This document shows positions 1 to 39,868 of a stretch of DNA of 39,868 nucleotides, in pieces. Under the pieces are notes generated by a model. The model did not search any database. It saw only the letters and a list, made by a program, of their open reading frames with translations, and was not told the DNA's origin. The translations under genes were made by a program, and so were the position numbers. Position 1 is the stretch's first letter. Each line of letters begins with the position of its first letter. Source of the stretch: Clavibacter capsici (lineage in GTDB: Bacteria > Actinomycetota > Actinomycetes > Actinomycetales > Microbacteriaceae); assembly GCF_001280205.1 (NCBI RefSeq), contig NZ_CP012574.1, forward strand, positions 1 through 39,868. The letters are read 5' to 3'.

Positions 1-60
1 AGACGCAAGAAGACAGAGCTCTCCCTATGGCGGGAGGTGTGCTTTTTCGAGCTCCGCTGC

Positions 61-246
61 CTAGGGCTTGCGGGACCAGGCCTTGGCGATCTTCCTGATT
101 CGCTCAGCCGGCTCCTTGCTCTTGCCGAAGAGGACACGGCGCACGATCGGCGCGCCGATGATGATGGCCAGAAGCGGCGGCATCGCGGTGACAAGTGCGG
201 TCAGGAAGTTCACCTCCTCCGGGGACTCGGGAAGCAGGTTCGTCAT
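61..246 (-). CDS. Small membrane peptide, 61 aa (module A)
   Basis: This is a 61-residue protein of unknown function. Residues 1-14 are acidic (MTNLLPESPEEVNF). One hydrophobic helix follows at about 15-36 (ALVTAMPPLLAIIIGAPIV). The tail is strongly basic and ends WSRKP, so it should span the cytoplasmic membrane once with the tail inside. The start at 246 has a purine-rich ribosome site (GGAGAGG) eight bases upstream. An in-frame ATG at 366 would give 101 residues, but between this copy and its paralogue at 3216-3401 nine of the ten base differences in that extension would change the amino acid, which argues that it is untranslated leader. The paralogue is about 45% identical with no gaps. 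A type I toxin-like or membrane-signalling peptide is conceivable; nothing proves either. Confidence 0.6.
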   Translation of the reverse strand: MTNLLPESPEEVNFLTALVTAMPPLLAIIIGAPIVRRVLFGKSKEPAERIRKIAKAWSRKP

Positions 247-257
247 GACGAGCCTCT

Positions 258-374
258 CCGCAGGGGACACGCGAGCGTGTCGGGGTGGCACCGCGCCGGG
301 TGGCGCGGTGAGTTCGGGACGCACCCACGGCGAGGTCGCGGTGGGTGGGCAAGAGGAGAGCGCCACGGGCGCTC
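258..374 (-). promoter_or_regulatory. Hairpin-rich leader of the module A peptide gene
   Basis: Four perfect stem-loops lie in the untranslated region: 266-272/275-281 (GACACGC arms), 289-297/302-310 (CACCGCGCC arms), 322-328/341-347 (CACCCAC arms) and 358-364/368-374 (GAGCGCC arms). All four recur at the same spacing in module B, and the 120 bases before the start differ at only ten positions. Whether it is a cis-regulatory leader on the minus strand or an RNA from the opposite strand is not settled. The one changed pair in the second stem is G-U on the plus strand and C-A on the minus. Confidence 0.55.
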
Positions 375-467
375 GAGCTGCTCAGCTGTCATGGCCGACG
401 TCCGCCGCTGATGGTCGACCTGACCGAAAAGTTGTCGACGTGGTGCTCAGGGGCGCGTTCGGGCATG

Positions 468-492
468 AAAAAAGCCAGCCCGTGGGCTGGCT
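468..492 (-). terminator. Intrinsic terminator inside module A
   Basis: Read on the minus strand, a 9-bp stem AGCCAGCCC/GGGCTGGCT with a two-base loop is followed by TTTTTT. It lies about 220 bases upstream of the 61-codon gene, so it would stop transcription before the leader. It therefore ends an upstream RNA or acts as an attenuator. The identical hairpin is at 3623-3647. Confidence 0.75.
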
Positions 493-640
493 AGTTCGGT
501 GGGAGGGGTCCTATTCGTGCGGCCATAATCGGCTATACGGCGTGCCCACATCGTATGACGTCACTATGTCACAGTGCACAAGAGCGTTCGTGCCCTGTGT
601 CTCTGTGTGGGCATTTCGTGGGCCACGCCGGAGACGAAGA

Positions 641-661
641 AGGCCAGCGCGGGGCTGGCCT
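641..661 (-). terminator. Second terminator-like hairpin in module A
   Basis: The arms AGGCCAGC (641-648) and GCTGGCCT (654-661) form an 8-bp stem with a five-base loop. On the minus strand it is followed by TCTTCG, so the T-run is weak. It is conserved at 3796-3816, where the arms are identical and only the loop changes, which argues for function as a hairpin. Confidence 0.5.
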
Positions 662-860
662 GGATGGTGGACATAGCTCTCCACCGACAAGTTCATCGTA
701 CGACTTTTCGACCGCGGCCGCGAGGACACACACAGGCGCGGTGCGCTCTTAACCGTTGGGGAGGAAGCCACCCTGCGGCAATGTACCGGCCCAGCTCCGA
801 CATCTTGAACCTAAGGGGTGAAGCCACGGATCCCGCGCGTTCACCACCCCGCTCACCTTT

Positions 861-899
861 AAGTAGTGGGGGGACATCGTGCCCATGTCAACTGCGACG
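861..899 (-). promoter_or_regulatory. Conserved TTGACA block, possible module promoter
   Basis: On the minus strand TTGACA (891-886) is followed by a run ending CCCCACTACTT that is nearly identical in module B (TTGACA there at 4052-4047). No convincing -10 hexamer sits at 17-18 bases, so this may be a promoter of unusual type or a protein-binding site. It would drive the roughly 400-base RNA ending at 468-492. From 926 to 1181 I see no gene or clear signal. Confidence 0.35.
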
Positions 900-1181
900 G
901 GCGCCAGGGTTGTCCGAGCCTCATCATTCGATGAGGACTGTGTGGCTCCAGGGTCCGGCGAGCGGTCCGTACGTCTCACGGGCGATGCGTGCCCGGGTAT
1001 CGAACTGTCGAAAGCCGGCGGCGCGTGGAGGGCCAAGCTGGCGGAGTTCTCGGGGACAGGCTCGCTTGGATCGCCCACATGTCCGCTGCTTCGGTGGTGC
1101 CAGACGCCCTTGGCTCCCTTGGAGGACTCATCGCCACCGCCAGAACCTACGCGGCGTCGCCTGCGCGAGGCTCTGGCGTCG

Positions 1182-1841
1182 CTACTGCTGCTCTTGCGCG
1201 GTGACGGCGCGTTCGACTTCTCCGAGGAGAGCGTCGGGTGAGGTCAGCTCGAGCTGGGTGTCGTTGAGGAAGATCGTCGGGGTGCCGGTGACGCCGAGGG
1301 CGATGCCGGCGTCGAAGTCCTGCTGCACGCGCGCCTTCGTTGCTGGGTCCGAGACGACCGCGTCATACGCGGCAAGGTCGAGCCCCAGCTCGTCGGCGAA
1401 GCTGCGGAACAAGCTGGCCTTGGACCCCTGCTGCTCGCCCCACTGGGTCTGGGTGTCAAACATGCGCTGGTACATGGCCTCGAACTGCCCCTGCTGGGCG
1501 GCGGCTTCAACGGCGACAGCGGCGTTCATCGAGTTCTTGTGCGCGGGAATCGGGAAGTACCGGGTGACGAACGTGACGCGGCCAGCGTACTCCTCGCGCA
1601 GCTGCTCGACGTAGGGGTGCACGGCGAGGCAGACCTCGCATTCGAAGTCGAGGAACTCCGTGAACACGACGGACCCTTCAGGCGCCGTATCGAGGCGGTG
1701 GCTGTTTTCGGCAACGACCGTCACCGTGTCCGCATCGATGGTCGAGTCCGGTTGCGCGCGGCTGATGACGAATGCCGAGGCGAGGACCGCGACGGCGAGG
1801 CCGGCGGCGAGGGACAGCTGGATCTTGGTGGTGCGCTTCAT
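1182..1841 (-). CDS. DsbA-family thioredoxin-fold protein, membrane-anchored
   Basis: This 219-residue protein has an N-terminal signal anchor (about residues 8-28) followed by a thioredoxin fold of the DsbA/Thioredoxin_4 group. The active-site motif is CEVC at residues 68-71, and the cis-proline loop is GVTGTP near the C terminus. It should act outside the membrane as a thiol-disulfide oxidoreductase, forming or isomerising disulfides in exported proteins. The start at 1841 follows a GGAGA ribosome site; an in-frame upstream ATG adds 26 residues that overlap the previous gene and look untranslated. It is the last gene of the CmtR-transporter operon, 43 bases behind the transporter. Whether it helps the transporter, with its C-terminal CDCC, or the plasmid's cysteine-rich proteases is inference. 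Confidence 0.85.
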   Translation of the reverse strand: MKRTTKIQLSLAAGLAVAVLASAFVISRAQPDSTIDADTVTVVAENSHRLDTAPEGSVVFTEFLDFECEVCLAVHPYVEQLREEYAGRVTFVTRYFPIPAHKNSMNAAVAVEAAAQQGQFEAMYQRMFDTQTQWGEQQGSKASLFRSFADELGLDLAAYDAVVSDPATKARVQQDFDAGIALGVTGTPTIFLNDTQLELTSPDALLGEVERAVTAQEQQ

Positions 1842-1884
1842 GGGTCTCCGGGGAGGGTGGTGCGGTGACAGTGGCGGTAGGGCG

Positions 1885-2568
1885 TCAGCAGCAGTCGCAT
1901 GCCTCGACCTCGCGCTCACCGGTGAGCGCGGAGACGGGGGTCTTGCACGCGTCGCCGCGCCAGGCTTCCAGTCCCTCGCGGACGGCGAAGACCACGATGA
2001 TGAGGCCTGCGACCGGGTCTGCCCACGTCCACCCGAAGACGAGGTTCAGGACGAGACCGAGGAGGACCGCGGCGGAGAGGTAGCTGCAGATCAGCGTCTG
2101 CTTAGAGTCCGCGATCGCGGACGCGGAGCCGAGCTCCGTACCGGTGCGCCGCTCGAGGAGGCTGAGGAACGGCATGATCGCCAGGCTCACCGCTGCGAGG
2201 ATGATGCCCACGGGCGAGTGGTCGGGTTCCCGGATCCCGGTCAGCGCGAGGACCGCGTCGACGCTCACGTACGCGGCAAGCCCGAAGAAGGAGACCGCGA
2301 TGACGCGGAGCGTGACGCGTTCACGCTTCTCTGGATCCGGGGCAGCGAACTGCCAGGCGACCGCGGCCGCGGAGAGCACTTCGACGATCGAGTCCAGCCC
2401 GAACCCGATGAGCGCGGTGGAAGACGCGACTGTGCCGGCCGTGATCGCGATGATCGCCTCGATGACGTTGTAGGTGATCGTCGCGGCGACGATCCACCGG
2501 ATCCGGCGCTGGAGAAGCGTCCTGCGGGCGGGAGCGAGCACACCGGTTCGGATAGTGGTGGTGCTCAT
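1885..2568 (-). CDS. Cation diffusion facilitator family metal exporter
   Basis: This 227-residue integral membrane protein has about six hydrophobic helices (near 25-48, 53-73, 86-108, 118-136, 150-175 and 183-197). Helix 2 carries FGLDSIVEV and helix 5 carries IADSKQTLICSY, the pattern of a short CDF clade in which these polar residues replace the classical HxxxD sites. It lacks the long cytoplasmic C-terminal domain of zinc CDFs and instead ends in the cysteine cluster ACDCC. The start at 2568 overlaps the stop of the cmtR gene (ATGA), indicating translational coupling; the upstream in-frame ATG at 2586 lies inside cmtR. It probably exports Cd, Pb or a related divalent metal under CmtR control. 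The metal is inferred from the regulator, not from the transporter. Confidence 0.85.
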   Translation of the reverse strand: MSTTTIRTGVLAPARRTLLQRRIRWIVAATITYNVIEAIIAITAGTVASSTALIGFGLDSIVEVLSAAAVAWQFAAPDPEKRERVTLRVIAVSFFGLAAYVSVDAVLALTGIREPDHSPVGIILAAVSLAIMPFLSLLERRTGTELGSASAIADSKQTLICSYLSAAVLLGLVLNLVFGWTWADPVAGLIIVVFAVREGLEAWRGDACKTPVSALTGEREVEACDCC

Positions 2569-2918
2569 GCGGTTACCCCGCAGCACAGCGGAATGTCGCA
2601 GTCCTCATCTGCGCAGGGCACGCCGTCATCGACAGCCAGTACGACATCGACCAGCGCGGTCAGTGCCCGAGTGAGGTGTGCGTCCGCGATTTCGTACCGG
2701 GTAGATCGGCCCTCGGTCACGGCCACCACAATCCCGCAGCCACGAAGGCACGTCAGGTGGTTGGACACGTTGGAGCGCGTCAACTCGAGCTCCACAGCGA
2801 GCTTGCTCGGATAGCCCGGCCCCTCGAGCAGGTGCAGCAGAATTCGAGACCTAGTCGGATCGGCCATGGCCCGCCCCAGCCGGTTCATCACGTCCACGCG
2901 CGAAGCAAGAGTCAGCAT
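2565..2918 (-). CDS. cmtR: CmtR-type ArsR-family Cd/Pb-sensing repressor
   Basis: This 117-residue winged-helix repressor closely follows mycobacterial CmtR in length and motifs: RLGRAMADPTRSRIL, the recognition segment LTRSNVSNHLTCLRGCG, and a C-terminal cysteine-rich tail. Cysteines fall at 57, 61 and 102, the positions that bind cadmium or lead in CmtR. Extra cysteines at 107, 112 and 113 may add affinity. The start at 2918 matches the start of the family; the longer reading frame back to 3077 adds unrelated sequence. It heads the operon with the CDF transporter and the DsbA-like gene. It is expected to bind its own promoter and release it when metal binds. Confidence 0.9.
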   Translation of the reverse strand: MLTLASRVDVMNRLGRAMADPTRSRILLHLLEGPGYPSKLAVELELTRSNVSNHLTCLRGCGIVVAVTEGRSTRYEIADAHLTRALTALVDVVLAVDDGVPCADEDCDIPLCCGVTA

Positions 2919-2960
2919 CCACTGACCATACAGCACATAGTGACCTATCGGCAGGGAAGC
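2919..2960 (-). promoter_or_regulatory. Probable cmtR operon promoter
   Basis: On the minus strand TATGGT lies six bases before the cmtR ATG, which would give a leaderless or nearly leaderless message, common in actinobacteria. No clear -35 is seen. Autoregulation by CmtR is expected here from family knowledge. The stretch 2961-3160 shows no gene. Confidence 0.35.
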
Positions 2961-3215
2961 CCGGATCGTGGCATCCCCCGTTGGGTCACCGAGTGGAACG
3001 CTACGGGGCCTGACCCCGATACTTCGCCCCGGTGATGCGCCATCGAGAGGTACCAGAACACCGCCGTCAAGCGGCAACAGTCATAACCTGAGACGCTAGA
3101 TTCCGCGGCCAACGCTCGGCGCCGAAGTGGTCCGGAGAGGGATCCCCTGCTGAGACGCTTGAAGACAGAGCTCTCCTTAAGCGAAGAGGGTGCGCTTTTT
3201 CGAGTTCCGCGAGGC

Positions 3216-3401
3216 CTAGGGCTTGCGGTTCCAGAACTTGGTGGCCTTCCCAATGCGGTCCATCGTCTTGTCGCTCCTACGGAGCGCAGCGATGTAGACG
3301 AGCGGCGCGAAGACGAGAATCGCGACCGTCTTCGGCTGAGGCGCGAGCGTCGACACCAGGAAGTTCACCTCCTCCAGGATCTCGGGAAGCAGGATCGTCA
3401 T
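3216..3401 (-). CDS. Small membrane peptide, 61 aa (module B)
   Basis: This is the paralogue of the 61-246 peptide, also exactly 61 residues. It shares the N terminus MT.LLPE..EEVNFL and the C terminus FWNRKP. The hydrophobic helix is at about 24-41 (TVAILVFAPLVYIAAL) and the tail is basic. The middle has diverged strongly while length, charge layout and ends are kept, which fits a membrane-active peptide. The start at 3401 has the same GGAGAGG ribosome site. No family is recognised. Divergent paralogues behind near-identical leaders could mean that the leader RNA is the regulated or interacting part and the peptides have specialised. Confidence 0.6.
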   Translation of the reverse strand: MTILLPEILEEVNFLVSTLAPQPKTVAILVFAPLVYIAALRRSDKTMDRIGKATKFWNRKP

Positions 3402-3412
3402 GACGAGCCTCT

Positions 3413-3529
3413 CCGCAGGGGACACGCGAGCGTGTCGGGGTGACACCGCGCCGGACGGCGTGGTGAGTTTGGGACGCACGCACGGCGAGTTCGCGGTGAG
3501 TGCGTAAGAGGAGAGCGCCACAGGCGCTC
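3413..3529 (-). promoter_or_regulatory. Hairpin-rich leader of the module B peptide gene
   Basis: Stem-loops correspond one for one to those at 258-374: 3421-3427/3430-3436, 3444-3452/3457-3465 (one wobble pair), 3477-3483/3496-3502 (one mismatch) and 3513-3519/3523-3529. The fourth stem keeps both arms and changes only one loop base. Confidence 0.55.
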
Positions 3530-3622
3530 GAGCTGCTCAGCCGTCATGTCGGCACTACGCCGCTGAGGATCGACTTAGCCGAAAAGGTGCCGGCGGGATG
3601 CTCGCGGGCGTGTTCGGGCATG

Positions 3623-3647
3623 AAAAAAGCCAGCCCGTGGGCTGGCT
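3623..3647 (-). terminator. Intrinsic terminator inside module B
   Basis: Same 9-bp stem, two-base loop and T-run as at 468-492, identical in sequence. On the plus strand the same bases can be read as a tiny frame MKKASPWAG-stop in both copies, which I take as incidental. Confidence 0.75.
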
Positions 3648-3795
3648 AGTTCGAGGTGAGAGTTTGTGTCCGTACGGCCCTAGTCGGCCACACGACGTAC
3701 CCAAATCGTATGCAATCACTATGTCACGGTGCACAAGAGCGTCTGTGCCCTGTGTCTCGACAGCAGAACCCCGTGGGCGGCGCCGGAGACGAAGA

Positions 3796-3816
3796 AGGCC
3801 AGCGCGAGGCTGGCCT
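3796..3816 (-). terminator. Second terminator-like hairpin in module B
   Basis: Arms AGGCCAGC and GCTGGCCT with loop GCGAG, matching 641-661 except in the loop. Minus-strand direction, weak T-run. Confidence 0.45.
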
Positions 3817-4101
3817 TGACGTGAGCAGGATGCGGACATGCGCATCCGCATGTGTCCTAAGCGTACCGCGATCCGGTTGAGACCGCGCGGGCGCGCAGAA
3901 GACATGCACTAGTAACTGTAGAGGAGGAAGCCACGTCGGAGAGACGCATGACAGCAAGCTCACACCTTGAACCTACGGGGTGACGCCACCGGGCCGACTC
4001 GTCGCCGCCTTGCTCATCTTCAAGTAGTGGGGAGACATCGTGGCGCTGTCAACTGCGACGTGCGCCGGGGTCGTGCCTGCCGCACGGGTCCGCCCTGTGG
4101 C

Positions 4102-4374
4102 CTAGACGACCTTGCGGATCCACTCCCAGGTCTCCTTGTCTAGCCACCCTTGCCGCGCCTTGCCGTCGATTTCGACACAGAAGATTTCGTCGTTGGCGTC
4201 GAGGATCGGCTGTAGCGCGTCAGAGACGCCCTGCGCCGTCAGATAGGGGCCTGAGACGATCCACGTGGACTTGAGGATGTTGGCCCAGGTGCCGTAGGAC
4301 TTGATCTTCTCAATGAGCTTGTCGTATGTCTGGCCCGGCGAGTTGAGGTCGTACGAGATGAGGATGGCGGTCAT
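4102..4374 (-). CDS. Stand-alone Cas2-fold (SinR-like) small protein
   Basis: This 90-residue protein begins MTAILISYDLNSPGQTYDKL, the ferredoxin-like first strand with a YDL motif typical of the SinR/VapD/Cas2-like superfamily. TWIVSGPYLTAQGVSDAL and NDEIFCVEIDGKARQGWL follow. Members of this superfamily include Cas2 and VapD nucleases, while most SinR-like proteins have no tested function. There is no CRISPR array or cas1 here, so a CRISPR role is unlikely. The conserved Asp at residue 9 sits where Cas2 places its metal-binding aspartate. The start at 4374 has no good ribosome site; TAGCGT about ten bases upstream may be a -10 for a near-leaderless message. It is divergent from the ribbon-helix-helix gene and directly upstream of module B on the same strand. 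Confidence 0.6.
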   Translation of the reverse strand: MTAILISYDLNSPGQTYDKLIEKIKSYGTWANILKSTWIVSGPYLTAQGVSDALQPILDANDEIFCVEIDGKARQGWLDKETWEWIRKVV

Positions 4375-4433
4375 GGGTCAGACGCTATTGGCGCTAGCTC
4401 TCCATGGCCGCCCCCAGGCCGGGGGCCGCAGAC

Positions 4434-4456
4434 GCCGACACGCTGTGCGTGTCGGC
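4434..4456. promoter_or_regulatory. Perfect inverted repeat between divergent genes
   Basis: Arms GCCGACACGC and GCGTGTCGGC (10 bp, loop TGT) lie midway between the divergent starts at 4374 and 4491. It is a candidate operator for the ribbon-helix-helix protein encoded beside it, or a hairpin in an RNA leader. Confidence 0.45.
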
Positions 4457-4490
4457 CTCTTAAGGCGGCTAGCCGCGCTACCTTGGCGGC

Positions 4491-4736
4491 ATGACAGAGA
4501 AGGGCACGCCCCGACGCCCCCGCGGCTCGGTTGAGAAGGGGGTGACTCCTCGGTGGACCATCGAGGAGTCGTCTCGTGACGCCGTAAACGCGATGGCGAA
4601 GGCGGCGGGCATCTCCTCGTCGTACTTCGTCGACCTCTCGATCACGCATCTGCGTGCGGAGTTCGAAGTCGACGGTGTCCCGTCTTGGCTGCGCACCGCG
4701 CTAAGCCGTGAGGAGCTGCCGATCGAGCCCACTTAA
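4491..4736 (+). CDS. Small ribbon-helix-helix-like DNA-binding protein
   Basis: This 81-residue basic protein has an N-terminal arm rich in Arg and Pro (1-18). A strand-helix-helix pattern follows: TPRWTIEESSRDAVNAMAKA, then AGISSSYFVDLSITHLRAEF. This resembles CopG/Arc-type ribbon-helix-helix regulators that bind palindromes as dimers. TACCTT lies six bases upstream of the ATG, suggesting a near-leaderless message. It may control the inverted repeat at 4434-4456, the divergent Cas2-fold gene, or copy number of the replication gene that follows. All three are inferences from position. Confidence 0.55.
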   Translation: MTEKGTPRRPRGSVEKGVTPRWTIEESSRDAVNAMAKAAGISSSYFVDLSITHLRAEFEVDGVPSWLRTALSREELPIEPT

Positions 4737-4743
4737 CGAGCAT

Positions 4744-4767
4744 GGCCCCCCGCTTTCGCGAGGGGCC
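4744..4767 (+). terminator. Hairpin after the ribbon-helix-helix gene
   Basis: GGCCCC (4744-4749) pairs with GGGGCC (4762-4767), with an inner CGC/GCG. It lies eight bases after the stop, without a T-run, as is usual in high-G+C genomes. From 4768 to 4962 there is no gene; this may belong to the replication origin. Confidence 0.55.
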
Positions 4768-4962
4768 GAAGCACTGCGCCTTAGACCCTGACTGTTTGGC
4801 GACGGAACAGGTCTACGGCGGATCGAGTAAAGAACCGGCTTCTCAGGGCCGGGCCTTCGTCGTGCCTCCAATGAGCACATCAAGGGAAGCGAGCCCATCA
4901 TAACCACGTCCGTAGACCTCGCAACACCTCCGACACGCAAGACACGTGCGTATTTCCGCAGG

Positions 4963-22029: not shown

Positions 22030-22817
22030 CGCCCCGCAGCCGACGCCTGTTCGTCGTCGCCGCCGTGCTCCTGAGTGCGTGCGGCGTCGTCGGCGGTTGG
22101 TACGGCACGGGCTTGGGCTTCACGCAGGAACCGGCCGACGTCGCGACCGCGGCCACCGCCGAGCCGGTCGACGTCGCGGCCGCGAGCGGCGCCGTCGGCG
22201 ACGTCCTCGCCCGGGCCGGCCTCGTGCGCGGCGGCGTGGTCGACGCGGCCGCCGTGCGGGCGCTCGTCGACAAGTTGCCGGCAGACACCCACGCGCGGAC
22301 GCCGGCCTACGACCGGGCCGCCTAAGGGCCGTCCTGGGCCGACACCGACCACAACGGGTGCGACCAGCGAAACGACGTCCTCGCGCGCGACCTCACCGCG
22401 GTCACGTACACGAAGGCGGATCCCGGATGCACCGTGGCCACGGGGCACCTGGCCGACGTCTACACGGGCCGCAGCATCGACTTCACCCGCGGGAAGGCCA
22501 CGAGCGCGGCCGTGCAGATCGACCACCTCGTGCCCCTCGGGTGGGCGTGGCAGCACGGCGCCGCCGCCTGGACGGGGGAGCGGCGCGAGCAGCTCGCGAC
22601 CGACTTCAACAACCTCCAAGCCGTCGACGGGCCGACGAACGAGGCGAAGTCCGACCAGGGGCCCGCGAAGTGGCTTCCGCCGGCCGCGGGCTATGACTGC
22701 CTGTATGTCACCCGGTTCGCGTACGTGCTGAGCACGTACGCGCTCACGATCGACGACGCCGACCGGGCCGCGATCGACCACGCGCTCGACGGCTGCCCCT
22801 CACCCGCTGTCGGGTAG
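22026..22817 (+). pseudogene. Exported HNH nuclease (DUF1524-type) interrupted by an in-frame stop
   Basis: A single frame of 264 codons encodes an N-terminal signal or lipoprotein-like segment (LLSACGVVGG), the family block WADTDHNGCDQRNDVLARDL and the nuclease core QIDHLVPL with the downstream NNLQAVDG and NEAKSDQGP motifs. Codon 100 (22323-22325) is TAA, just where relatives have a Phe in a YDRxxFG segment. Both halves stay in frame, so one nonsense codon is the only defect. As written it makes a 99-residue fragment without the active site. Read-through, re-initiation or a base-calling error are alternatives. It is the last gene of the transfer operon. Confidence 0.75.
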
Positions 22818-23735: not shown

Positions 23736-23886
23736 CATTCTCCCGTCGTAAATTGTTGTGGTTGTAGTAACGAGACCTCGGGGAATCGGCGAGGATCGTG
23801 CACAAGCTAGTCGGAAGAAGAAGCGACAGGGCGATTCCTACACATGCCTTCTCGAGACGAGGCGTTCACGTCGAAAGGGAGATGGC

Positions 23887-31744: not shown

Positions 31745-32551
31745 TCATCCGGTGACGAGGATGCTGGCAGCTGCTTCGATGACGTCATCGGTGATGGTCT
31801 CCAACTGGTTGATCTTGAGCACACGTTGGATCTGCGGGAAGAGCCGCTCGAGGAGGCGGAAGTTGCCGCGGGTGATGCGTTCGATGGCGGCGATGGCCTG
31901 GACATCCGTGAAATCTTCGGTGTTGAGTGTGTGGCCGAGGCGCTTCCAGTGGCGGTCGAGGACGAAGAGGAGCTCTTCCTGGCCGAGGGCACGGTAGCGG
32001 TGGGCGAAGCCGAGGCGGCTGTAGAGCTGCGGGTAGTGGCGGAAGCGCTGGTCGATGCCGGGCATGCCGATGAGGATGATCGCGAGGTGCTCGCGGTCGT
32101 GCCAATCGCGTAGGAGCTCGAGCGCGGTGGGCGTGAGCCGTTCCGCTTCGTCGATGATCAGCAGCTCGACCCACCGGCGCGCGTCGCCGCCGGTACCGAT
32201 GATCTTTCCGATCGTGCGCTGGTGATCCTCGATCCTGATGCCGAGGTCGACCGTCCAGCGGTCGAGCTCTCGCATGAGGTCCTTCGGCCGGGGTAGAACG
32301 TCGGGCGTGTAGAACACGGCGCGCGAGCGGTTGGCGGCGGCGTCGAGCTTGGGGTCATCCGCGCCGCGCCGACCCCACTCGTGGACGTAGGGCTCAAGAG
32401 TGTCCCAGTGCGCGTATCGGCGGGCGGAGTTGGTCTTTCCGACGCCGGCGTCGCCGTGGCAGATCCCGATGGTCTGCTCCTTCCGGACGGCGTTCGCGAA
32501 CTCGACGAACCGCCGGTGCTCTTTCGTGGTGATGAACGTGTCGGGCATCAT
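31745..32551 (-). CDS. tniB: TniB/TnsC-like AAA+ transposition ATPase
   Basis: This 268-residue AAA+ protein has Walker A GDAGVGKT (33-40), Walker B LLIIDEAERL (130-139) and a sensor segment LAIILIGMPG. It should choose target DNA and activate the transposase, like MuB or TnsC. The start overlaps the transposase stop by four bases (ATGA). No TniQ-type gene follows; the remaining 100 bases lead to the element end. Confidence 0.8.
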   Translation of the reverse strand: MMPDTFITTKEHRRFVEFANAVRKEQTIGICHGDAGVGKTNSARRYAHWDTLEPYVHEWGRRGADDPKLDAAANRSRAVFYTPDVLPRPKDLMRELDRWTVDLGIRIEDHQRTIGKIIGTGGDARRWVELLIIDEAERLTPTALELLRDWHDREHLAIILIGMPGIDQRFRHYPQLYSRLGFAHRYRALGQEELLFVLDRHWKRLGHTLNTEDFTDVQAIAAIERITRGNFRLLERLFPQIQRVLKINQLETITDDVIEAAASILVTG

Positions 32552-33936
32552 CCGTCCTCTTCATAGGTGCGCAGCCGCGGCCGCCGCGGCGGCGGTGCTG
32601 TCGCGGGCAGCTCGGCGCGTGCGGCGGCGGTGGTGGGGATGCGGTCGTTGAGGTCCCGGCGCAGCTGCCGGCGTCGGGCACGGCGTGCGGTCTCGACCTC
32701 GCGCAGGCTCATCCGCAGATTCGGGTGCGCCTCGTCGACGGCGACGCAGATGAAGGTGTTGTGGTCGTAGACGCGGATCTCGGAGATGTCACGCGGGTCG
32801 TACCGGATGGTCACGGTCCGGCCGACGAACGGCGCGAGAGTAGGGGCGAGGTACCGCTGGCCCTGGAAGTGGATCCCGTCGCGCTGCACGGTGCGGCTCT
32901 TCGGGACAGTGAGCAGGAGCCCGTCGAGCTCCACGAGACTCTCCGGCATCCGAGGCAGCCACCCGTCGCCGATCCACGCCGCGCGGGGCGTGACGCCGAG
33001 CTCCTTGTGTGGGCGGTCGTTGTAGGTGGAGATGAACGACCCGATGGCGGCGTCGAGGCCGGCGAGGTCGAGCGCCGGGGTCGGATGCCGGTTCCCGGCG
33101 CTGAGGCGGCCGGGGAGGAGCGGGAGCAGTTCCGTGGTGATGGTGCCGAAGAACCGCTCGATCTTCCCGCGGCCCTGGGGGCGGCCGACGGTGGAGTGGA
33201 TGATCCGGATCCGCAGCTCCGCGGCCGTGTGCTCGAGGTGCCGGCTGGTGAAGTCGGTGCCGTGGTCGACATGGAGGATGTCAGGGATCCCGCACATCGC
33301 CCAGCCCGGATCGGGTTTTCGCCAGATCGCTTGCCGCAGCGCCAGGGCGGTGTTCATCGCCGAAGGGGCGCCGGTGAAGACGGTGTACCCGCAGATGGCA
33401 CGGGAGTAATCGTCCATGATGACCGTCAGCCAAGGCCGGTCGGGCTTCCCGCTAGTGCCGACGATGAGGACGTCGAGCTCGGTGTGGTCGGCCTGCCACG
33501 TCTGGTTCGGGCGCTCCGCCCGGCGCCGGTACACGAGCTCGTGCCGATCCCGATACGACGCCGGCCCCTCCAGAGCCAGCGTCACCAACGCGGGCTCGAG
33601 GGCCTGAACGATCTCCCGCACCGTGGAGTAGCTCGGGATCGAGTCTCCGCGCTGCAACGCATCCGCGGCGGCAAGCCGGTGCAGGGTCGCGATGCTCGGT
33701 CGGGGCCTGGTCAGCGCGAGCCGCTCGACGAACGCGACCGTCGCTGCAGCTGTTCGCCGCCGCCCCGCGTCGCCCCGCGCGTGGGGGTCGAGGGCGGCGA
33801 TGCCGCCGGCGCGGTAGAGGTGGTGCCAGCGTTGCAGGGTGCGTGCGCTGACGCCGGTGGTGCGGGCGAGAACCGCGAGCGGGATCTCGTCTTCGACATG
33901 CAGCCGAAGAATCCGCCACCGTCCGAGCCCGTCCAC
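32548..33936 (-). CDS. tniA: TniA/Mu-type DDE transposase
   Basis: This protein of about 462 residues has an N-terminal helix-turn-helix (VLARTTGVSARTLQRWHHLY, about 22-41). An rve catalytic domain follows with DDE residues Asp150 (WQADHTELD), Asp224 (HVDHGTDF) and Glu260 (GRGKIERFFG), and then a Mu-type C-terminal beta-barrel and a basic tail. The spacing of the last two residues fits DD(35)E. The GTG at 33936 gives the start best matching related proteins; the frame opens to 34008, inside the resolvase gene. Confidence 0.82.
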   Translation of the reverse strand: MDGLGRWRILRLHVEDEIPLAVLARTTGVSARTLQRWHHLYRAGGIAALDPHARGDAGRRRTAAATVAFVERLALTRPRPSIATLHRLAAADALQRGDSIPSYSTVREIVQALEPALVTLALEGPASYRDRHELVYRRRAERPNQTWQADHTELDVLIVGTSGKPDRPWLTVIMDDYSRAICGYTVFTGAPSAMNTALALRQAIWRKPDPGWAMCGIPDILHVDHGTDFTSRHLEHTAAELRIRIIHSTVGRPQGRGKIERFFGTITTELLPLLPGRLSAGNRHPTPALDLAGLDAAIGSFISTYNDRPHKELGVTPRAAWIGDGWLPRMPESLVELDGLLLTVPKSRTVQRDGIHFQGQRYLAPTLAPFVGRTVTIRYDPRDISEIRVYDHNTFICVAVDEAHPNLRMSLREVETARRARRRQLRRDLNDRIPTTAAARAELPATAPPPRRPRLRTYEEDG

Positions 33937-33944
33937 GCCTTGAC

Positions 33945-34538
33945 CTACATCGCGGCGCTCTCGCGCGCAGCGTTCGACTGGTGCCGGTACAACGTCGCCC
34001 GGCTCCACCCGACAAGCCGTGCCGCGTCTTCCGCGGTCCGGCCGCGGGCGCGCGCGTCGGTCGCGATCTGGAGCTTGTCGGCGATCACGGCCGGATCGGA
34101 CAGGGGGCGACCGAAGCGGGTCCCGTTGTCGCGTGCGACGGCGATGCCGGCGTTGACGCGCTCGACGATGAGCTCGCGCTCGTACTCGGCCAGGCTCGCG
34201 AGCATGCCCAGCATCAGCCGGCCCGAGGTGGTCGCCGGGTCGATGCCGTCGGAGATGGATCGGATCTGCACACCGCGTTCGCGTAGGAGCTTGACGGTGC
34301 TGAGGACGTCGAGCATGGAGCGGCCCAGGCGGTCAATCCGCCAGACGACGATGGTGTCGCCGTCCTCGGCGTACTCGAGCAGCTTCTTCATCCCCGGCCG
34401 CTCGATCGCGGCCCGGCTGCCGGAGGTGACGTCGGCGAACACGTCCCGCTTCTGCACACCGTCCTTCACCAGCGCGTCGAGCTGGAGCTGCGCATCCTGA
34501 CTCGTCGTGCTCACTCGCGTGTATCCCAGAAGCCTCAC
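33945..34538 (-). CDS. Serine resolvase of the tni element
   Basis: This 197-residue resolvase begins (GTG start) with the family motif LLGYTRVSTTSQDAQ, nucleophile Ser10, and has VVWRIDRLGRSMLDV and the arm helix EYERELIVERVNAGI. A C-terminal helix-turn-helix follows (TAEDAARLVGWSRATLYRH). It would resolve cointegrates formed by TniA. It is only about 30% like the 31012 recombinase by eye. An in-frame GTG at 34586 would start the protein inside the inverted repeat and is less likely. Confidence 0.83.
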   Translation of the reverse strand: MRLLGYTRVSTTSQDAQLQLDALVKDGVQKRDVFADVTSGSRAAIERPGMKKLLEYAEDGDTIVVWRIDRLGRSMLDVLSTVKLLRERGVQIRSISDGIDPATTSGRLMLGMLASLAEYERELIVERVNAGIAVARDNGTRFGRPLSDPAVIADKLQIATDARARGRTAEDAARLVGWSRATLYRHQSNAARESAAM

Positions 34539-34585: not shown

Positions 34586-34692
34586 CTTTGCGGTGAGATG
34601 ACTTGACGAGACGTCGAGGCCCCAGTAACCAGGCTCGCTTGACGCGGCTCGGACGGGCACTCGGCGATGTCTTGGAAAGCTATTGGTTTTCG
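34586..34692. other. Junction between the tni element and module A
   Basis: About 100 bp with no gene. In the circle it leads straight into position 1 and the 3' flank of module A. No target-site duplication of the transposon is visible here. Confidence 0.4.
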
Positions 34693-34752
34693 AGACGCAA
34701 GAAGACAGAGCTCTCCCTATGGCGGGAGGTGTGCTTTTTCGAGCTCCGCTGC

Positions 34753-34938
34753 CTAGGGCTTGCGGGACCAGGCCTTGGCGATCTTCCTGATTCGCTCAGC
34801 CGGCTCCTTGCTCTTGCCGAAGAGGACACGGCGCACGATCGGCGCGCCGATGATGATGGCCAGAAGCGGCGGCATCGCGGTGACAAGTGCGGTCAGGAAG
34901 TTCACCTCCTCCGGGGACTCGGGAAGCAGGTTCGTCAT
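34753..34938 (-). CDS. Small membrane peptide, 61 aa (same gene as 61-246)
   Basis: Identical to the gene at 61-246, repeated because the contig overlaps itself. Its leader hairpins fall at 34950-35066 and its terminators at 35160-35184 and 35333-35353. Confidence 0.6.
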   Translation of the reverse strand: MTNLLPESPEEVNFLTALVTAMPPLLAIIIGAPIVRRVLFGKSKEPAERIRKIAKAWSRKP

Positions 34939-35873
34939 GACGAGCCTCTCCGCAGGGGACACGCGAGCGTGTCGGGGTGGCACCGCGCCGGGTGGCGCGG
35001 TGAGTTCGGGACGCACCCACGGCGAGGTCGCGGTGGGTGGGCAAGAGGAGAGCGCCACGGGCGCTCGAGCTGCTCAGCTGTCATGGCCGACGTCCGCCGC
35101 TGATGGTCGACCTGACCGAAAAGTTGTCGACGTGGTGCTCAGGGGCGCGTTCGGGCATGAAAAAAGCCAGCCCGTGGGCTGGCTAGTTCGGTGGGAGGGG
35201 TCCTATTCGTGCGGCCATAATCGGCTATACGGCGTGCCCACATCGTATGACGTCACTATGTCACAGTGCACAAGAGCGTTCGTGCCCTGTGTCTCTGTGT
35301 GGGCATTTCGTGGGCCACGCCGGAGACGAAGAAGGCCAGCGCGGGGCTGGCCTGGATGGTGGACATAGCTCTCCACCGACAAGTTCATCGTACGACTTTT
35401 CGACCGCGGCCGCGAGGACACACACAGGCGCGGTGCGCTCTTAACCGTTGGGGAGGAAGCCACCCTGCGGCAATGTACCGGCCCAGCTCCGACATCTTGA
35501 ACCTAAGGGGTGAAGCCACGGATCCCGCGCGTTCACCACCCCGCTCACCTTTAAGTAGTGGGGGGACATCGTGCCCATGTCAACTGCGACGGGCGCCAGG
35601 GTTGTCCGAGCCTCATCATTCGATGAGGACTGTGTGGCTCCAGGGTCCGGCGAGCGGTCCGTACGTCTCACGGGCGATGCGTGCCCGGGTATCGAACTGT
35701 CGAAAGCCGGCGGCGCGTGGAGGGCCAAGCTGGCGGAGTTCTCGGGGACAGGCTCGCTTGGATCGCCCACATGTCCGCTGCTTCGGTGGTGCCAGACGCC
35801 CTTGGCTCCCTTGGAGGACTCATCGCCACCGCCAGAACCTACGCGGCGTCGCCTGCGCGAGGCTCTGGCGTCG

Positions 35874-36533
35874 CTACTGCTGCTCTTGCGCGGTGACGGC
35901 GCGTTCGACTTCTCCGAGGAGAGCGTCGGGTGAGGTCAGCTCGAGCTGGGTGTCGTTGAGGAAGATCGTCGGGGTGCCGGTGACGCCGAGGGCGATGCCG
36001 GCGTCGAAGTCCTGCTGCACGCGCGCCTTCGTTGCTGGGTCCGAGACGACCGCGTCATACGCGGCAAGGTCGAGCCCCAGCTCGTCGGCGAAGCTGCGGA
36101 ACAAGCTGGCCTTGGACCCCTGCTGCTCGCCCCACTGGGTCTGGGTGTCAAACATGCGCTGGTACATGGCCTCGAACTGCCCCTGCTGGGCGGCGGCTTC
36201 AACGGCGACAGCGGCGTTCATCGAGTTCTTGTGCGCGGGAATCGGGAAGTACCGGGTGACGAACGTGACGCGGCCAGCGTACTCCTCGCGCAGCTGCTCG
36301 ACGTAGGGGTGCACGGCGAGGCAGACCTCGCATTCGAAGTCGAGGAACTCCGTGAACACGACGGACCCTTCAGGCGCCGTATCGAGGCGGTGGCTGTTTT
36401 CGGCAACGACCGTCACCGTGTCCGCATCGATGGTCGAGTCCGGTTGCGCGCGGCTGATGACGAATGCCGAGGCGAGGACCGCGACGGCGAGGCCGGCGGC
36501 GAGGGACAGCTGGATCTTGGTGGTGCGCTTCAT
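35874..36533 (-). CDS. DsbA-family protein (same gene as 1182-1841)
   Basis: Identical to the gene at 1182-1841, with the CEVC active site. Repeated by contig overlap, not a paralogue. Confidence 0.85.
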   Translation of the reverse strand: MKRTTKIQLSLAAGLAVAVLASAFVISRAQPDSTIDADTVTVVAENSHRLDTAPEGSVVFTEFLDFECEVCLAVHPYVEQLREEYAGRVTFVTRYFPIPAHKNSMNAAVAVEAAAQQGQFEAMYQRMFDTQTQWGEQQGSKASLFRSFADELGLDLAAYDAVVSDPATKARVQQDFDAGIALGVTGTPTIFLNDTQLELTSPDALLGEVERAVTAQEQQ

Positions 36534-36576
36534 GGGTCTCCGGGGAGGGTGGTGCGGTGACAGTGGCGGTAGGGCG

Positions 36577-37260
36577 TCAGCAGCAGTCGCATGCCTCGAC
36601 CTCGCGCTCACCGGTGAGCGCGGAGACGGGGGTCTTGCACGCGTCGCCGCGCCAGGCTTCCAGTCCCTCGCGGACGGCGAAGACCACGATGATGAGGCCT
36701 GCGACCGGGTCTGCCCACGTCCACCCGAAGACGAGGTTCAGGACGAGACCGAGGAGGACCGCGGCGGAGAGGTAGCTGCAGATCAGCGTCTGCTTAGAGT
36801 CCGCGATCGCGGACGCGGAGCCGAGCTCCGTACCGGTGCGCCGCTCGAGGAGGCTGAGGAACGGCATGATCGCCAGGCTCACCGCTGCGAGGATGATGCC
36901 CACGGGCGAGTGGTCGGGTTCCCGGATCCCGGTCAGCGCGAGGACCGCGTCGACGCTCACGTACGCGGCAAGCCCGAAGAAGGAGACCGCGATGACGCGG
37001 AGCGTGACGCGTTCACGCTTCTCTGGATCCGGGGCAGCGAACTGCCAGGCGACCGCGGCCGCGGAGAGCACTTCGACGATCGAGTCCAGCCCGAACCCGA
37101 TGAGCGCGGTGGAAGACGCGACTGTGCCGGCCGTGATCGCGATGATCGCCTCGATGACGTTGTAGGTGATCGTCGCGGCGACGATCCACCGGATCCGGCG
37201 CTGGAGAAGCGTCCTGCGGGCGGGAGCGAGCACACCGGTTCGGATAGTGGTGGTGCTCAT
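36577..37260 (-). CDS. Cation diffusion facilitator (same gene as 1885-2568)
   Basis: Identical to the gene at 1885-2568; overlap copy of the CDF metal exporter. Confidence 0.85.
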   Translation of the reverse strand: MSTTTIRTGVLAPARRTLLQRRIRWIVAATITYNVIEAIIAITAGTVASSTALIGFGLDSIVEVLSAAAVAWQFAAPDPEKRERVTLRVIAVSFFGLAAYVSVDAVLALTGIREPDHSPVGIILAAVSLAIMPFLSLLERRTGTELGSASAIADSKQTLICSYLSAAVLLGLVLNLVFGWTWADPVAGLIIVVFAVREGLEAWRGDACKTPVSALTGEREVEACDCC

Positions 37261-37610
37261 GCGGTTACCCCGCAGCACAGCGGAATGTCGCAGTCCTCAT
37301 CTGCGCAGGGCACGCCGTCATCGACAGCCAGTACGACATCGACCAGCGCGGTCAGTGCCCGAGTGAGGTGTGCGTCCGCGATTTCGTACCGGGTAGATCG
37401 GCCCTCGGTCACGGCCACCACAATCCCGCAGCCACGAAGGCACGTCAGGTGGTTGGACACGTTGGAGCGCGTCAACTCGAGCTCCACAGCGAGCTTGCTC
37501 GGATAGCCCGGCCCCTCGAGCAGGTGCAGCAGAATTCGAGACCTAGTCGGATCGGCCATGGCCCGCCCCAGCCGGTTCATCACGTCCACGCGCGAAGCAA
37601 GAGTCAGCAT
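37257..37610 (-). CDS. cmtR: CmtR-type repressor (same gene as 2565-2918)
   Basis: Identical to the gene at 2565-2918; overlap copy with Cys57, Cys61 and Cys102. Confidence 0.9.
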   Translation of the reverse strand: MLTLASRVDVMNRLGRAMADPTRSRILLHLLEGPGYPSKLAVELELTRSNVSNHLTCLRGCGIVVAVTEGRSTRYEIADAHLTRALTALVDVVLAVDDGVPCADEDCDIPLCCGVTA

Positions 37611-37907
37611 CCACTGACCATACAGCACATAGTGACCTATCGGCAGGGAAGCCCGGATCGTGGCATCCCCCGTTGGGTCACCGAGTGGAACGCTACGGGG
37701 CCTGACCCCGATACTTCGCCCCGGTGATGCGCCATCGAGAGGTACCAGAACACCGCCGTCAAGCGGCAACAGTCATAACCTGAGACGCTAGATTCCGCGG
37801 CCAACGCTCGGCGCCGAAGTGGTCCGGAGAGGGATCCCCTGCTGAGACGCTTGAAGACAGAGCTCTCCTTAAGCGAAGAGGGTGCGCTTTTTCGAGTTCC
37901 GCGAGGC

Positions 37908-38093
37908 CTAGGGCTTGCGGTTCCAGAACTTGGTGGCCTTCCCAATGCGGTCCATCGTCTTGTCGCTCCTACGGAGCGCAGCGATGTAGACGAGCGGCGC
38001 GAAGACGAGAATCGCGACCGTCTTCGGCTGAGGCGCGAGCGTCGACACCAGGAAGTTCACCTCCTCCAGGATCTCGGGAAGCAGGATCGTCAT
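37908..38093 (-). CDS. Small membrane peptide, 61 aa (same gene as 3216-3401)
   Basis: Identical to the gene at 3216-3401. Module B as a whole recurs at 37853-38778, with terminators at 38315-38339 and 38488-38508. Confidence 0.6.
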   Translation of the reverse strand: MTILLPEILEEVNFLVSTLAPQPKTVAILVFAPLVYIAALRRSDKTMDRIGKATKFWNRKP

Positions 38094-38793
38094 GACGAGC
38101 CTCTCCGCAGGGGACACGCGAGCGTGTCGGGGTGACACCGCGCCGGACGGCGTGGTGAGTTTGGGACGCACGCACGGCGAGTTCGCGGTGAGTGCGTAAG
38201 AGGAGAGCGCCACAGGCGCTCGAGCTGCTCAGCCGTCATGTCGGCACTACGCCGCTGAGGATCGACTTAGCCGAAAAGGTGCCGGCGGGATGCTCGCGGG
38301 CGTGTTCGGGCATGAAAAAAGCCAGCCCGTGGGCTGGCTAGTTCGAGGTGAGAGTTTGTGTCCGTACGGCCCTAGTCGGCCACACGACGTACCCAAATCG
38401 TATGCAATCACTATGTCACGGTGCACAAGAGCGTCTGTGCCCTGTGTCTCGACAGCAGAACCCCGTGGGCGGCGCCGGAGACGAAGAAGGCCAGCGCGAG
38501 GCTGGCCTTGACGTGAGCAGGATGCGGACATGCGCATCCGCATGTGTCCTAAGCGTACCGCGATCCGGTTGAGACCGCGCGGGCGCGCAGAAGACATGCA
38601 CTAGTAACTGTAGAGGAGGAAGCCACGTCGGAGAGACGCATGACAGCAAGCTCACACCTTGAACCTACGGGGTGACGCCACCGGGCCGACTCGTCGCCGC
38701 CTTGCTCATCTTCAAGTAGTGGGGAGACATCGTGGCGCTGTCAACTGCGACGTGCGCCGGGGTCGTGCCTGCCGCACGGGTCCGCCCTGTGGC

Positions 38794-39066
38794 CTAGACG
38801 ACCTTGCGGATCCACTCCCAGGTCTCCTTGTCTAGCCACCCTTGCCGCGCCTTGCCGTCGATTTCGACACAGAAGATTTCGTCGTTGGCGTCGAGGATCG
38901 GCTGTAGCGCGTCAGAGACGCCCTGCGCCGTCAGATAGGGGCCTGAGACGATCCACGTGGACTTGAGGATGTTGGCCCAGGTGCCGTAGGACTTGATCTT
39001 CTCAATGAGCTTGTCGTATGTCTGGCCCGGCGAGTTGAGGTCGTACGAGATGAGGATGGCGGTCAT
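38794..39066 (-). CDS. Cas2-fold SinR-like protein (same gene as 4102-4374)
   Basis: Identical to the gene at 4102-4374; overlap copy. Confidence 0.6.
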   Translation of the reverse strand: MTAILISYDLNSPGQTYDKLIEKIKSYGTWANILKSTWIVSGPYLTAQGVSDALQPILDANDEIFCVEIDGKARQGWLDKETWEWIRKVV

Positions 39067-39182
39067 GGGTCAGACGCTATTGGCGCTAGCTCTCCATGGC
39101 CGCCCCCAGGCCGGGGGCCGCAGACGCCGACACGCTGTGCGTGTCGGCCTCTTAAGGCGGCTAGCCGCGCTACCTTGGCGGC

Positions 39183-39428
39183 ATGACAGAGAAGGGCACG
39201 CCCCGACGCCCCCGCGGCTCGGTTGAGAAGGGGGTGACTCCTCGGTGGACCATCGAGGAGTCGTCTCGTGACGCCGTAAACGCGATGGCGAAGGCGGCGG
39301 GCATCTCCTCGTCGTACTTCGTCGACCTCTCGATCACGCATCTGCGTGCGGAGTTCGAAGTCGACGGTGTCCCGTCTTGGCTGCGCACCGCGCTAAGCCG
39401 TGAGGAGCTGCCGATCGAGCCCACTTAA
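39183..39428 (+). CDS. Ribbon-helix-helix-like protein (same gene as 4491-4736)
   Basis: Identical to the gene at 4491-4736; overlap copy. The inverted repeat recurs at 39126-39148 and the hairpin at 39436-39459. Confidence 0.55.
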   Translation: MTEKGTPRRPRGSVEKGVTPRWTIEESSRDAVNAMAKAAGISSSYFVDLSITHLRAEFEVDGVPSWLRTALSREELPIEPT

Positions 39429-39654
39429 CGAGCATGGCCCCCCGCTTTCGCGAGGGGCCGAAGCACTGCGCCTTAGACCCTGACTGTTTGGCGACGGAAC
39501 AGGTCTACGGCGGATCGAGTAAAGAACCGGCTTCTCAGGGCCGGGCCTTCGTCGTGCCTCCAATGAGCACATCAAGGGAAGCGAGCCCATCATAACCACG
39601 TCCGTAGACCTCGCAACACCTCCGACACGCAAGACACGTGCGTATTTCCGCAGG

Positions 39655-39868
39655 TTGGCAAACGCCTCGAGCGAGCCGACGCTGCCCGGGTTGGAGCCGT
39701 CGAGCGCGCTCGACGCAGAGAACGCGCCGGCGTCGTGGTCGCTGCCGGTGCCGGCCGGTGCGTACGCCAAGGTGCCGGCGTGGACTTCGCCGGCCGCGTG
39801 GATGGCTGCTGTCCGTGCGGACGTGCTCTCGGCCGAGGGCCACGCTGCCCGCCGGCAGATCGACGTCA
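39655..39868 (+). CDS. Replication initiator, first 71 codons (same gene as 4963-6564)
   Basis: Identical to the start of the gene at 4963 and cut by the end of the window at residue 71. This is an artefact of where the contig stops, not a truncated gene. Confidence 0.75.
   Translation, partial: MANASSEPTLPGLEPSSALDAENAPASWSLPVPAGAYAKVPAWTSPAAWMAAVRADVLSAEGHAARRQIDV

Follow-up and report, generated by a model that had tools for sequence, protein, structure and literature searches.

The 39,868-base contig NZ_CP012574.1 of Clavibacter capsici (assembly GCF_001280205.1), analyzed here over its whole length as the window, carries two copies, A and B, of a module in which a structured leader precedes a gene for a 61-residue membrane peptide, and the question that it raises is what kind of system such an arrangement constitutes. 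An initial annotation had presented the pair as undescribed and had offered a type I toxin-like system as one of several readings. Our own answer is a tentative one: we regard it as close to an even call that the module is type-I-like, i.e., that it specifies a membrane toxin which is restrained by RNA and helps its element to persist, with both the expression and the toxicity being presumed. Its mRNA design would then work as in type I systems, making it a new family with a known kind of logic. At the level of sequence, the anatomy of the module, its status as a family, the covarying leader hairpins, the covarying pairing between the ribosome site and a 3' element, the type of the peptide and the resolvase/res neighborhood are established.

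The contig represents a circular molecule of about 34,692 bp whose two ends overlap in the assembly (Table 1). Because of this overlap A and B reappear at 34.7-38.8 kb, and repeats between the two window ends are therefore assembly redundancy rather than extra copies: each module is present once per plasmid and twice in the window. Both lie on the minus strand and have all the parts named in the initial annotation in the same order, namely a TTGACA-N20-TACTTRAAG block, two related boxes, the hairpin T1, a weak promoter-like pair, the terminator T2 with a T6 tract and the tail CATGCCC, a hairpin leader, a Shine-Dalgarno (SD) sequence, the 61-codon gene and a 3' element. The expectation that the conserved parts would be mostly noncoding held for A versus B, which are 88% identical across a 300-nt block as against 44% in the peptides, a value near the anticipated 45%. 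The box-2 motif has five matches in the window versus 0.29 expected, four of them exact (one per module, each doubled by the contig overlap) and one with three mismatches. The proposal of two terminator-like hairpins survives in part: in a terminator scan of the window modules T2 scored as an intrinsic terminator, whereas T1, which has a broken T tract, did not. The hairpin in the 3' element scores as terminator-like on the opposite strand in A (20-37) and on the sense strand in B (3188-3171).

The type-I-like reading gains from the pairing of the SD with the 3' element and from the location of modules close to a resolvase and a res-like palindrome. The former is a new feature, beyond the initial annotation, as is an overlapping open reading frame (ORF) in the leader (see below). 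When the RNA is folded from the T2 end through to 58 nt beyond the stop codon, nine of the 13 Microbacteriaceae modules have the SD paired with the post-stop element in the minimum free energy (MFE) structure (B and those that we label pCP, after the C. phaseoli plasmid, Rfest, G383, Agreia, VKM2855, Hdaph, G365 and G219). Thus, a cis RNA structure hiding the ribosome site, which is common but not universal in type I systems, is predicted in these nine. The mean share of the 14 SD-window bases that are paired is 0.48 with a module's own 50-nt tail, 0.16 with swapped tails and 0.07 with dinucleotide-shuffled ones. The bases flanking the GGAGG:CCUCC-type core vary among the modules and yet pair, as GCGG/CCGC, CCCGG/CCGGG, CUCGC/GCGAG, CCAG/CUGG, ACCCAG/CUGGGU, ACUCAG/CUGAGU and CAGU/ACUG. 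In a matrix of ten modules with a hand-picked register, from which pCM2 and Hmoech were omitted as near-duplicates and in which G383 was not entered, this flank pairing amounts to 0.975 for native versus 0.645 for swapped combinations. A native-versus-swapped test on 28 segment pairs in 11 modules gave z -4.0 (p 0.0002) for the SD and the 3' tail, as against just p 0.037 and 0.040 for the SD and two upstream segments. As several modules are close relatives, the independent cases number fewer than 13; the mycobacterial relatives (see below) were left out of these statistics because the same element is absent there.

The leader itself proved to be structured, as had been claimed. Across 12 aligned modules (G219 was omitted from the alignment) the two hairpins before the SD have 88.5% of their cells paired, whereas slid registers pair at 30-54%. 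Seven of their 13 pairs are altered on both sides, a number reached by one of 500 shuffles, and the 18 cells altered on both sides were reached by none of the 500. Judged by this covariation, the hairpins are genuine structures of the RNA (or cruciforms). In A, B and pCS1 (from C. sepedonicus) the TGA of the overlapping leader ORF overlaps the peptide ATG (ATGA), and the ORF is also open in pCM2 by eye. Its codon-position pattern is coding-like for A/pCS1 (5,3,10) and A/B (3,3,6) but not for B/pCS1 (5,4,4); coding support is thus mixed, and no such ORF chain was noted in Rfest, so that among the relatives examined a conserved mok-like gene is at most a candidate.

The module's peptide has one main hydrophobic stretch, in line with the single helix ascribed to it. 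In A residues 17-35 give the highest 19-residue hydropathy (2.16), one membrane helix is predicted, and the net charge is -3 on the acidic N side and +8 on the basic C side; in B the hydropathy reaches 1.60 at residues 22-40. The 20 family peptides span 47-68 aa (G383 being trimmed from a longer frame), with best 19-residue hydropathies of 1.5-3.4 and a positive C-side net charge in 19 of them. They accordingly share the type I toxin trait of being small and hydrophobic, with one membrane helix and a cationic C-terminus, although 10 of the 20 exceed the size of 'less than 60 aa' given in a passage of PMC8309996. The frame is open in all full-length relatives read, and the membrane-helix segment and a PA.R motif are also present in the mycobacterial ones. 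No curated family was matched in Pfam (A and B), NCBIfam (10 peptides, best E 0.075) or PADLOC (9 peptides), T1TAdb not having been searched; nine family peptides likewise found no family in PHROGs (best E 0.12), and no Rfam family reached its gathering score in the window.

The family is patchy and mobile in its distribution. By DNA, the module occurs in 8 of 72,556 plasmid records, seven from Clavibacter and one from Rathayibacter, the latter over 31% of the query. Among 398 Microbacteriaceae genomes, the peptide profile recovers nine with E-values no higher than 4.1e-9 and a tenth, G219, at E 1.5e-5, where the flanking elements are in place. At E 0.01 it lists 18 genomes, of which these 10 are counted; the other eight (E 5.5e-5 to 0.006, long open frames), G075 being the one that was read, are not. 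A covariance-model search with the leader, a check suggested in the initial annotation, returned the same nine genomes out of 398, all with E-values of 7e-10 or lower; since the model was built from members of that set, the agreement mainly means that no further member turned up. Homologs with covarying hairpins do exist, and their peptide frames are kept open, so that neither of the two refuting outcomes of the initial annotation that sequence can address has come about. Weaker matches of this model came from 12 of 21 genomes (E 4.7e-6 to 0.01), and none of the seven of these that were read has module features. A species-genome scan gave five loci, in Microbacterium, Agreia, a Microbacteriaceae bacterium and two Herbiconiux. 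Shorter relatives (47-63 aa) occur on mycobacterial plasmids. Their link to the family is modest (E 6e-4 to 1e-3 for full matches from the VKM2855 peptide), 14 of the 18 records in that plasmid peptide search being mycobacterial, and the six mycobacterial loci read have the same order of a terminator with a like tail, leader, SD and gene, as does one further genome of the phylum. An order-wide sample yielded the source genome only (1 of 396), and a phylum-wide one the source genome and one other, of 396. Viral contigs and phages gave no matches to the peptide.

The second supporting feature is the neighborhood. Of the 14 Microbacteriaceae modules, 7 are followed, at 398-421 bp from the peptide start, by a same-strand serine resolvase motif, and in 7 of 14 a palindrome of 27-28 bp resembling res site I starts 47-56 bp past the stop codon. 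Both occur together in 5 of 14; B has neither, and the site of G383 has diverged and was missed by the pattern. Loci L038 and L039 have the module in common and diverge at the center of the res-like palindrome. The association is one-sided, in that a close resolvase (E 1e-60) is found in 72 plasmid records as against the eight with the module by DNA. The resolvase after A is followed by genes for a transposase with rve and Mu-transpos_C domains, which we take to be TniA-like, and an AAA_22 ATPase, presumably TniB-like; downstream of B lie ArsR, cation-efflux and DsbA-like genes.

Table 1. Features of modules A and B and their surroundings (window positions unless a locus is named)
Feature	Position	Strand	Basis or remark
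Terminal redundancy	34693..39868	.	base-for-base copy of 1-5176 (sequence comparison)
TTGACA-N20-TACTTAAAG block of A	857..891	-	sequence read
TTGACA-N20-TACTTGAAG block of B	4018..4052	-	sequence read
Box 2 of A	804..820	-	motif search
Box 2 of B	3966..3982	-	motif search
Box 3 of A	742..771	-	A/B comparison and sequence read
Box 3 of B	3905..3934	-	A/B comparison and sequence read
Hairpin T1 of A	640..661	-	broken T tract; no terminator score
Hairpin T1 of B	3796..3817	-	no terminator score
Weak promoter-like TTGTGC-N20-TACGAT before T2 of A	550..581	-	putative; score below shuffle mean of maxima
Weak promoter-like TTGTGC-N20-TACGAT before T2 of B	3705..3736	-	putative
Terminator T2 of A, tail TTTTTTCATGCCC	461..492	-	terminator scan
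Terminator T2 of B, tail as in A	3616..3647	-	terminator scan
Leader of A	247..460	-	sequence read
Leader hairpin H-b of A	291..308	-	covariation
Leader hairpin H-c of A	266..281	-	covariation
Leader hairpin H-b of B	3446..3463	-	covariation
Leader hairpin H-c of B	3421..3436	-	covariation
Overlapping leader ORF of A, 49 aa	243..392	-	stop overlaps peptide start (ATGA); weak coding signal
Overlapping leader ORF of B, 49 aa	3398..3547	-	sequence read
SD of A peptide, GGAGAGG	253..259	-	sequence read
SD of B peptide	3408..3414	-	pairs with 3' element in MFE fold; 0.70 of SD-window bases in ensemble
Peptide gene of A, 61 aa	61..246	-	translation, hydropathy, relatives
Peptide gene of B, 61 aa	3216..3401	-	translation, hydropathy
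3' element of A after stop codon, hairpin 21-37	10..60	-	short SD complementarity; ensemble pairing 0.02; opposite strand terminator-like
3' element of B	3165..3215	-	complementary to GCGGAGAGG through its core CCUCUUCGC at 3181-3189; terminator-like hairpin on sense strand
28-bp palindrome like res site I, directly after A (second reading)	34669..34696	-	res name by likeness
Serine resolvase after A	33945..34535	-	Pfam Resolvase 1e-41; motif GYTRVST from 34526; start codon by eye
DDE transposase	32548..33960	-	rve and Mu-transpos_C domains; domain search
AAA_22 ATPase	31745..32551	-	AAA_22 3.9e-20
Alike upstream short RNA	L041 1135-1200; L056 2685-2730; L057 2685-2730; L067 1400-1465		by eye

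In terms of mechanism, transcription would start upstream of T2 and mostly stop at it. In the RNA that reads through, the SD of the peptide would be held by the complementary post-stop element, with CU-rich segments of the leader as possible earlier traps, and removal or opening of the 3' element would free the ribosome site. Alternatively, release could follow from a short-lived inhibitory RNA being lost along with the element. The freed peptide would enter the membrane and impair the cell, and retention of the plasmid or transposon would thereby be favored. As regards the start of such transcripts, one promoter scan found sense promoters that clearly outscored shuffles immediately ahead of T2 in pCP, VKM2855, Hdaph and G219, one farther upstream in G383 and a moderate one in G365; VKM2855 has tandem terminators upstream of the peptide.

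Several results weigh against this account. A standard scan for sigma-70-type promoters gave no hit in any of A, B, VKM2855 and Mpall. No convincing antisense promoter was found in the modules scanned, the recurrent candidate near -63 having a poor -10 and lying on a conserved hairpin. The upstream RNA was tried and rejected as a base-pairing antitoxin, its longest complementarity to the leader or ORF being mostly within the range of 60 shuffles; isolated longer matches (13 nt in pCP, 13 nt with G-U pairs in pCM2, 11 and 12 in Agreia) are not shared. Four of the 13 modules (A, pCS1, pCM2 and Hmoech) lack a predicted SD/3' helix, and in these 8, 5, 2 and 3, respectively, of 12 foreign tails equal or beat the module's own. 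Even in the nine modules with the helix zero to three of 12 do so (VKM2855 three, B and pCP two). The pairing of ORF start with ORF end is likewise extreme in the native-versus-swapped test (z -4.2) and unexplained, simple counts of the longest match between leader and tail do not rise above shuffles, and in two mycobacterial folds the SD pairs with a different stretch, bases 39-53 after the stop. For the leader hairpins, one of the five measures of covariation, the number of pair types, does not exceed the shuffled controls. Among the peptides, that of pCP has a negative C side, and in G383 the stop of its relatives is absent and the frame extends to 89 aa. Finally, dN/dS is near or above 1 for A/B (1.05), B/pCS1 (1.12), pCS1/Rfest (1.16) and B/Rfest (1.26), though these ratios are uncertain and may be inflated by GC-biased third positions. 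Because the upstream RNA lacks shared complementarity and no antisense promoter convinces, we do not file the module as a proven type I system: the type I-like proposal gains from the SD/3' pairing and the res/resolvase position, and falls short in the antitoxin RNA, none being found, although sequence alone could miss one. A more specific version, in which this would be the first type-I-like toxin family of Actinobacteria (on elements of Microbacteriaceae and Mycobacteriaceae), inhibited by a short terminated upstream RNA of the same strand (promoter, hairpin, A-run, T1/T2) rather than by an antisense RNA, and moving by res-site recombination, strikes us as doubtful.

The divergence of the peptides lends itself to another explanation, namely that they are superinfection-exclusion or surface-specificity peptides which block related plasmids, phages or transposons, the leader serving to keep their expression low. 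Fast peptide change next to stable control regions (the above ratios for A/B, B/pCS1 and B/Rfest), two different peptides on one plasmid and a patchy mobile distribution would all suit such a role. However, purifying selection is apparent elsewhere, with dN/dS of 0.22-0.60 for Rfest/G383 (0.45), Rfest/Agreia (0.35), B/pCM2, Hdaph/Hmoech and Mpall/Mabs (0.22); mycobacterial relatives keep the helix segment and the PA.R motif, no known family is matched, and the third-position bias may account for part of the high ratios. We deem it unlikely.

Rather less probable is a signal-responsive attenuator, in which T1/T2 and the leader sense metal or envelope stress and the membrane peptide aids adjacent metal-resistance genes. 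Besides the genes after B, there are arsenic genes near pCP, an ArsR-like gene after G219 (by eye) and ArsR and cation transporter genes near Mpall, and the tandem terminators of VKM2855 could be read in the same way. But metal cassettes are common passengers of plasmids, no metal gene is annotated in the stretches examined for pCS1 and pCM2, and the window is without an Rfam family at gathering score.

It is more improbable still that the module is a leader or regulator of the adjacent resolvase/transposase operon, controlling transcription into the resolvase. The constant resolvase distance in 7 of 14 modules would fit this, as would the terminator scans of A and VKM2855, which gave no terminator-like site on the sense strand downstream of the gene, but the 3' hairpin of B does score as a sense-strand terminator. 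Moreover, the architecture is kept where the examined stretch has no downstream resolvase (B, pCM2, G238, Hdaph, G365 and G219, as well as Hmoech, with 196 bases only), close resolvases far outnumber modules among the plasmid records, and the SD/3' pairing concerns the peptide. The notion of a hitch-hiking recombination cassette, in which DNA palindromes matter and the peptide is incidental, draws on the divergence of L038 and L039 at the palindrome center and is very improbable given the RNA-level covariation and an open frame, SD and hydrophobic pattern that are kept from Microbacteriaceae to Mycobacteriaceae.

Several observations on the terminators stand apart from this argument. The T2-tail pattern has four matches in the source genome, all in the modules, and 11 in nine other carrier genomes, where 9 coincide with the module. 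At least 120 phage contigs contain a terminator with CATGCCCG after it (control patterns, 1 and 8), and 74 of 80 listed loci (viral contigs in the L092-L171 range) show a hairpin of less than -8 kcal/mol; often, by eye, a further small one, GCCCG...CGGGC, comes just past the U tract. With this tailed terminator so frequent in phage contigs, the T2 tail is no general hallmark of the module; possibly it is a widespread read-through or processing signal. The first short upstream RNA looks alike by eye in Microbacteriaceae and mycobacteria, with a hairpin like GCG.UUCGUGCGC, an A run or spacer, and a terminator.

Other observations concern the surroundings of the modules. Immediately upstream of B, a gene on the minus strand (4102-4374) codes for a small, weakly Cas2-like protein (phrog_1090, 2.5e-27), and a similar gene is found upstream of the pCS1 module. 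Two small helix-turn-helix (HTH) genes (L010 4911-5578; the first HTH_17 at 2.9e-6, the second by eye) precede the Rathayibacter module, and L015 has at 1450-1600 a module remnant, with the 3' end only, near a res-like site and resolvase (by eye). Elsewhere on the plasmid, a similar pair of GmrSD_C proteins (22434-22817 and 23758-24276, plus strand) flanks a trypsin-like gene, which suggests a local duplication, and the region 22902-29115 codes for four trypsin-like proteins, three of which pass a Pfam cut-off while the fourth falls short of it, and for one member of the pectate-lyase family.

Among known systems, the type-I-like reading has its nearest counterpart by description in the Helicobacter aapA/IsoA loci: a passage of PMC6733600 has the aapA3 mRNA rendered inert by a 5'-3' interaction masking the SD, and mentions CU-rich upstream anti-SD segments. 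These loci differ in having an antisense RNA, of which none is seen for the modules, and in coming from another phylum, while the modules add T2 and the resolvase neighbor. The hok/mok/Sok system similarly combines a plasmid-borne small membrane peptide with a 5'-3' fold-back, according to a part of PMC8167048, and the overlapping upstream ORF of the Clavibacter copies recalls mok; however, that ORF is weakly coding, no Sok-like RNA was found, and the fold-back covers the SD of the peptide itself. According to PMC12390103 (2025), type I systems had so far been identified only in Proteobacteria, Firmicutes and Tenericutes, and a first one in Cyanobacteria is proposed, the Microcystis msoT1/msoA1, a type I-like locus outside the classical phyla for which an antisense RNA is likewise proposed. 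For Clavibacter, a passage of PMC4059874 names YefM/YoeB and an unspecified toxin-antitoxin system. The label of an undescribed module is borne out in that, among the matches listed, open-licence literature on Clavibacter toxin-antitoxin systems and small RNAs, on type I systems in Actinobacteria or Streptomyces and on T1TAdb has no description of it. The toxin-antitoxin passengers at res site I of the Tn3 family resemble the modules in adjoining such a site upstream of a resolvase and exchanging at its center, but they are type II protein-antitoxin pairs in Tn3, whereas the modules are RNA-structured peptide genes beside resolvase, rve/Mu-transpos_C and AAA_22 genes. Type III systems such as ToxIN share with the modules the layout of promoter, short RNA, terminator and toxin gene on one strand, but their toxin is an RNase and not a membrane peptide. 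A repeat listing, with no tandem-repeat finder run, gave no direct repeat of at least 20 nt within one module, as a ToxIN-style repeat RNA would have.

If the type-I-like reading is correct, the RNA logic of type I systems would extend to another phylum, on the plasmids of plant-associated actinobacteria and mycobacteria, and the SD/3' pairing would offer a concrete RNA helix for mutation. It would also suggest that RNA-controlled peptides, besides protein pairs, have become attached to resolvase/res recombination units.

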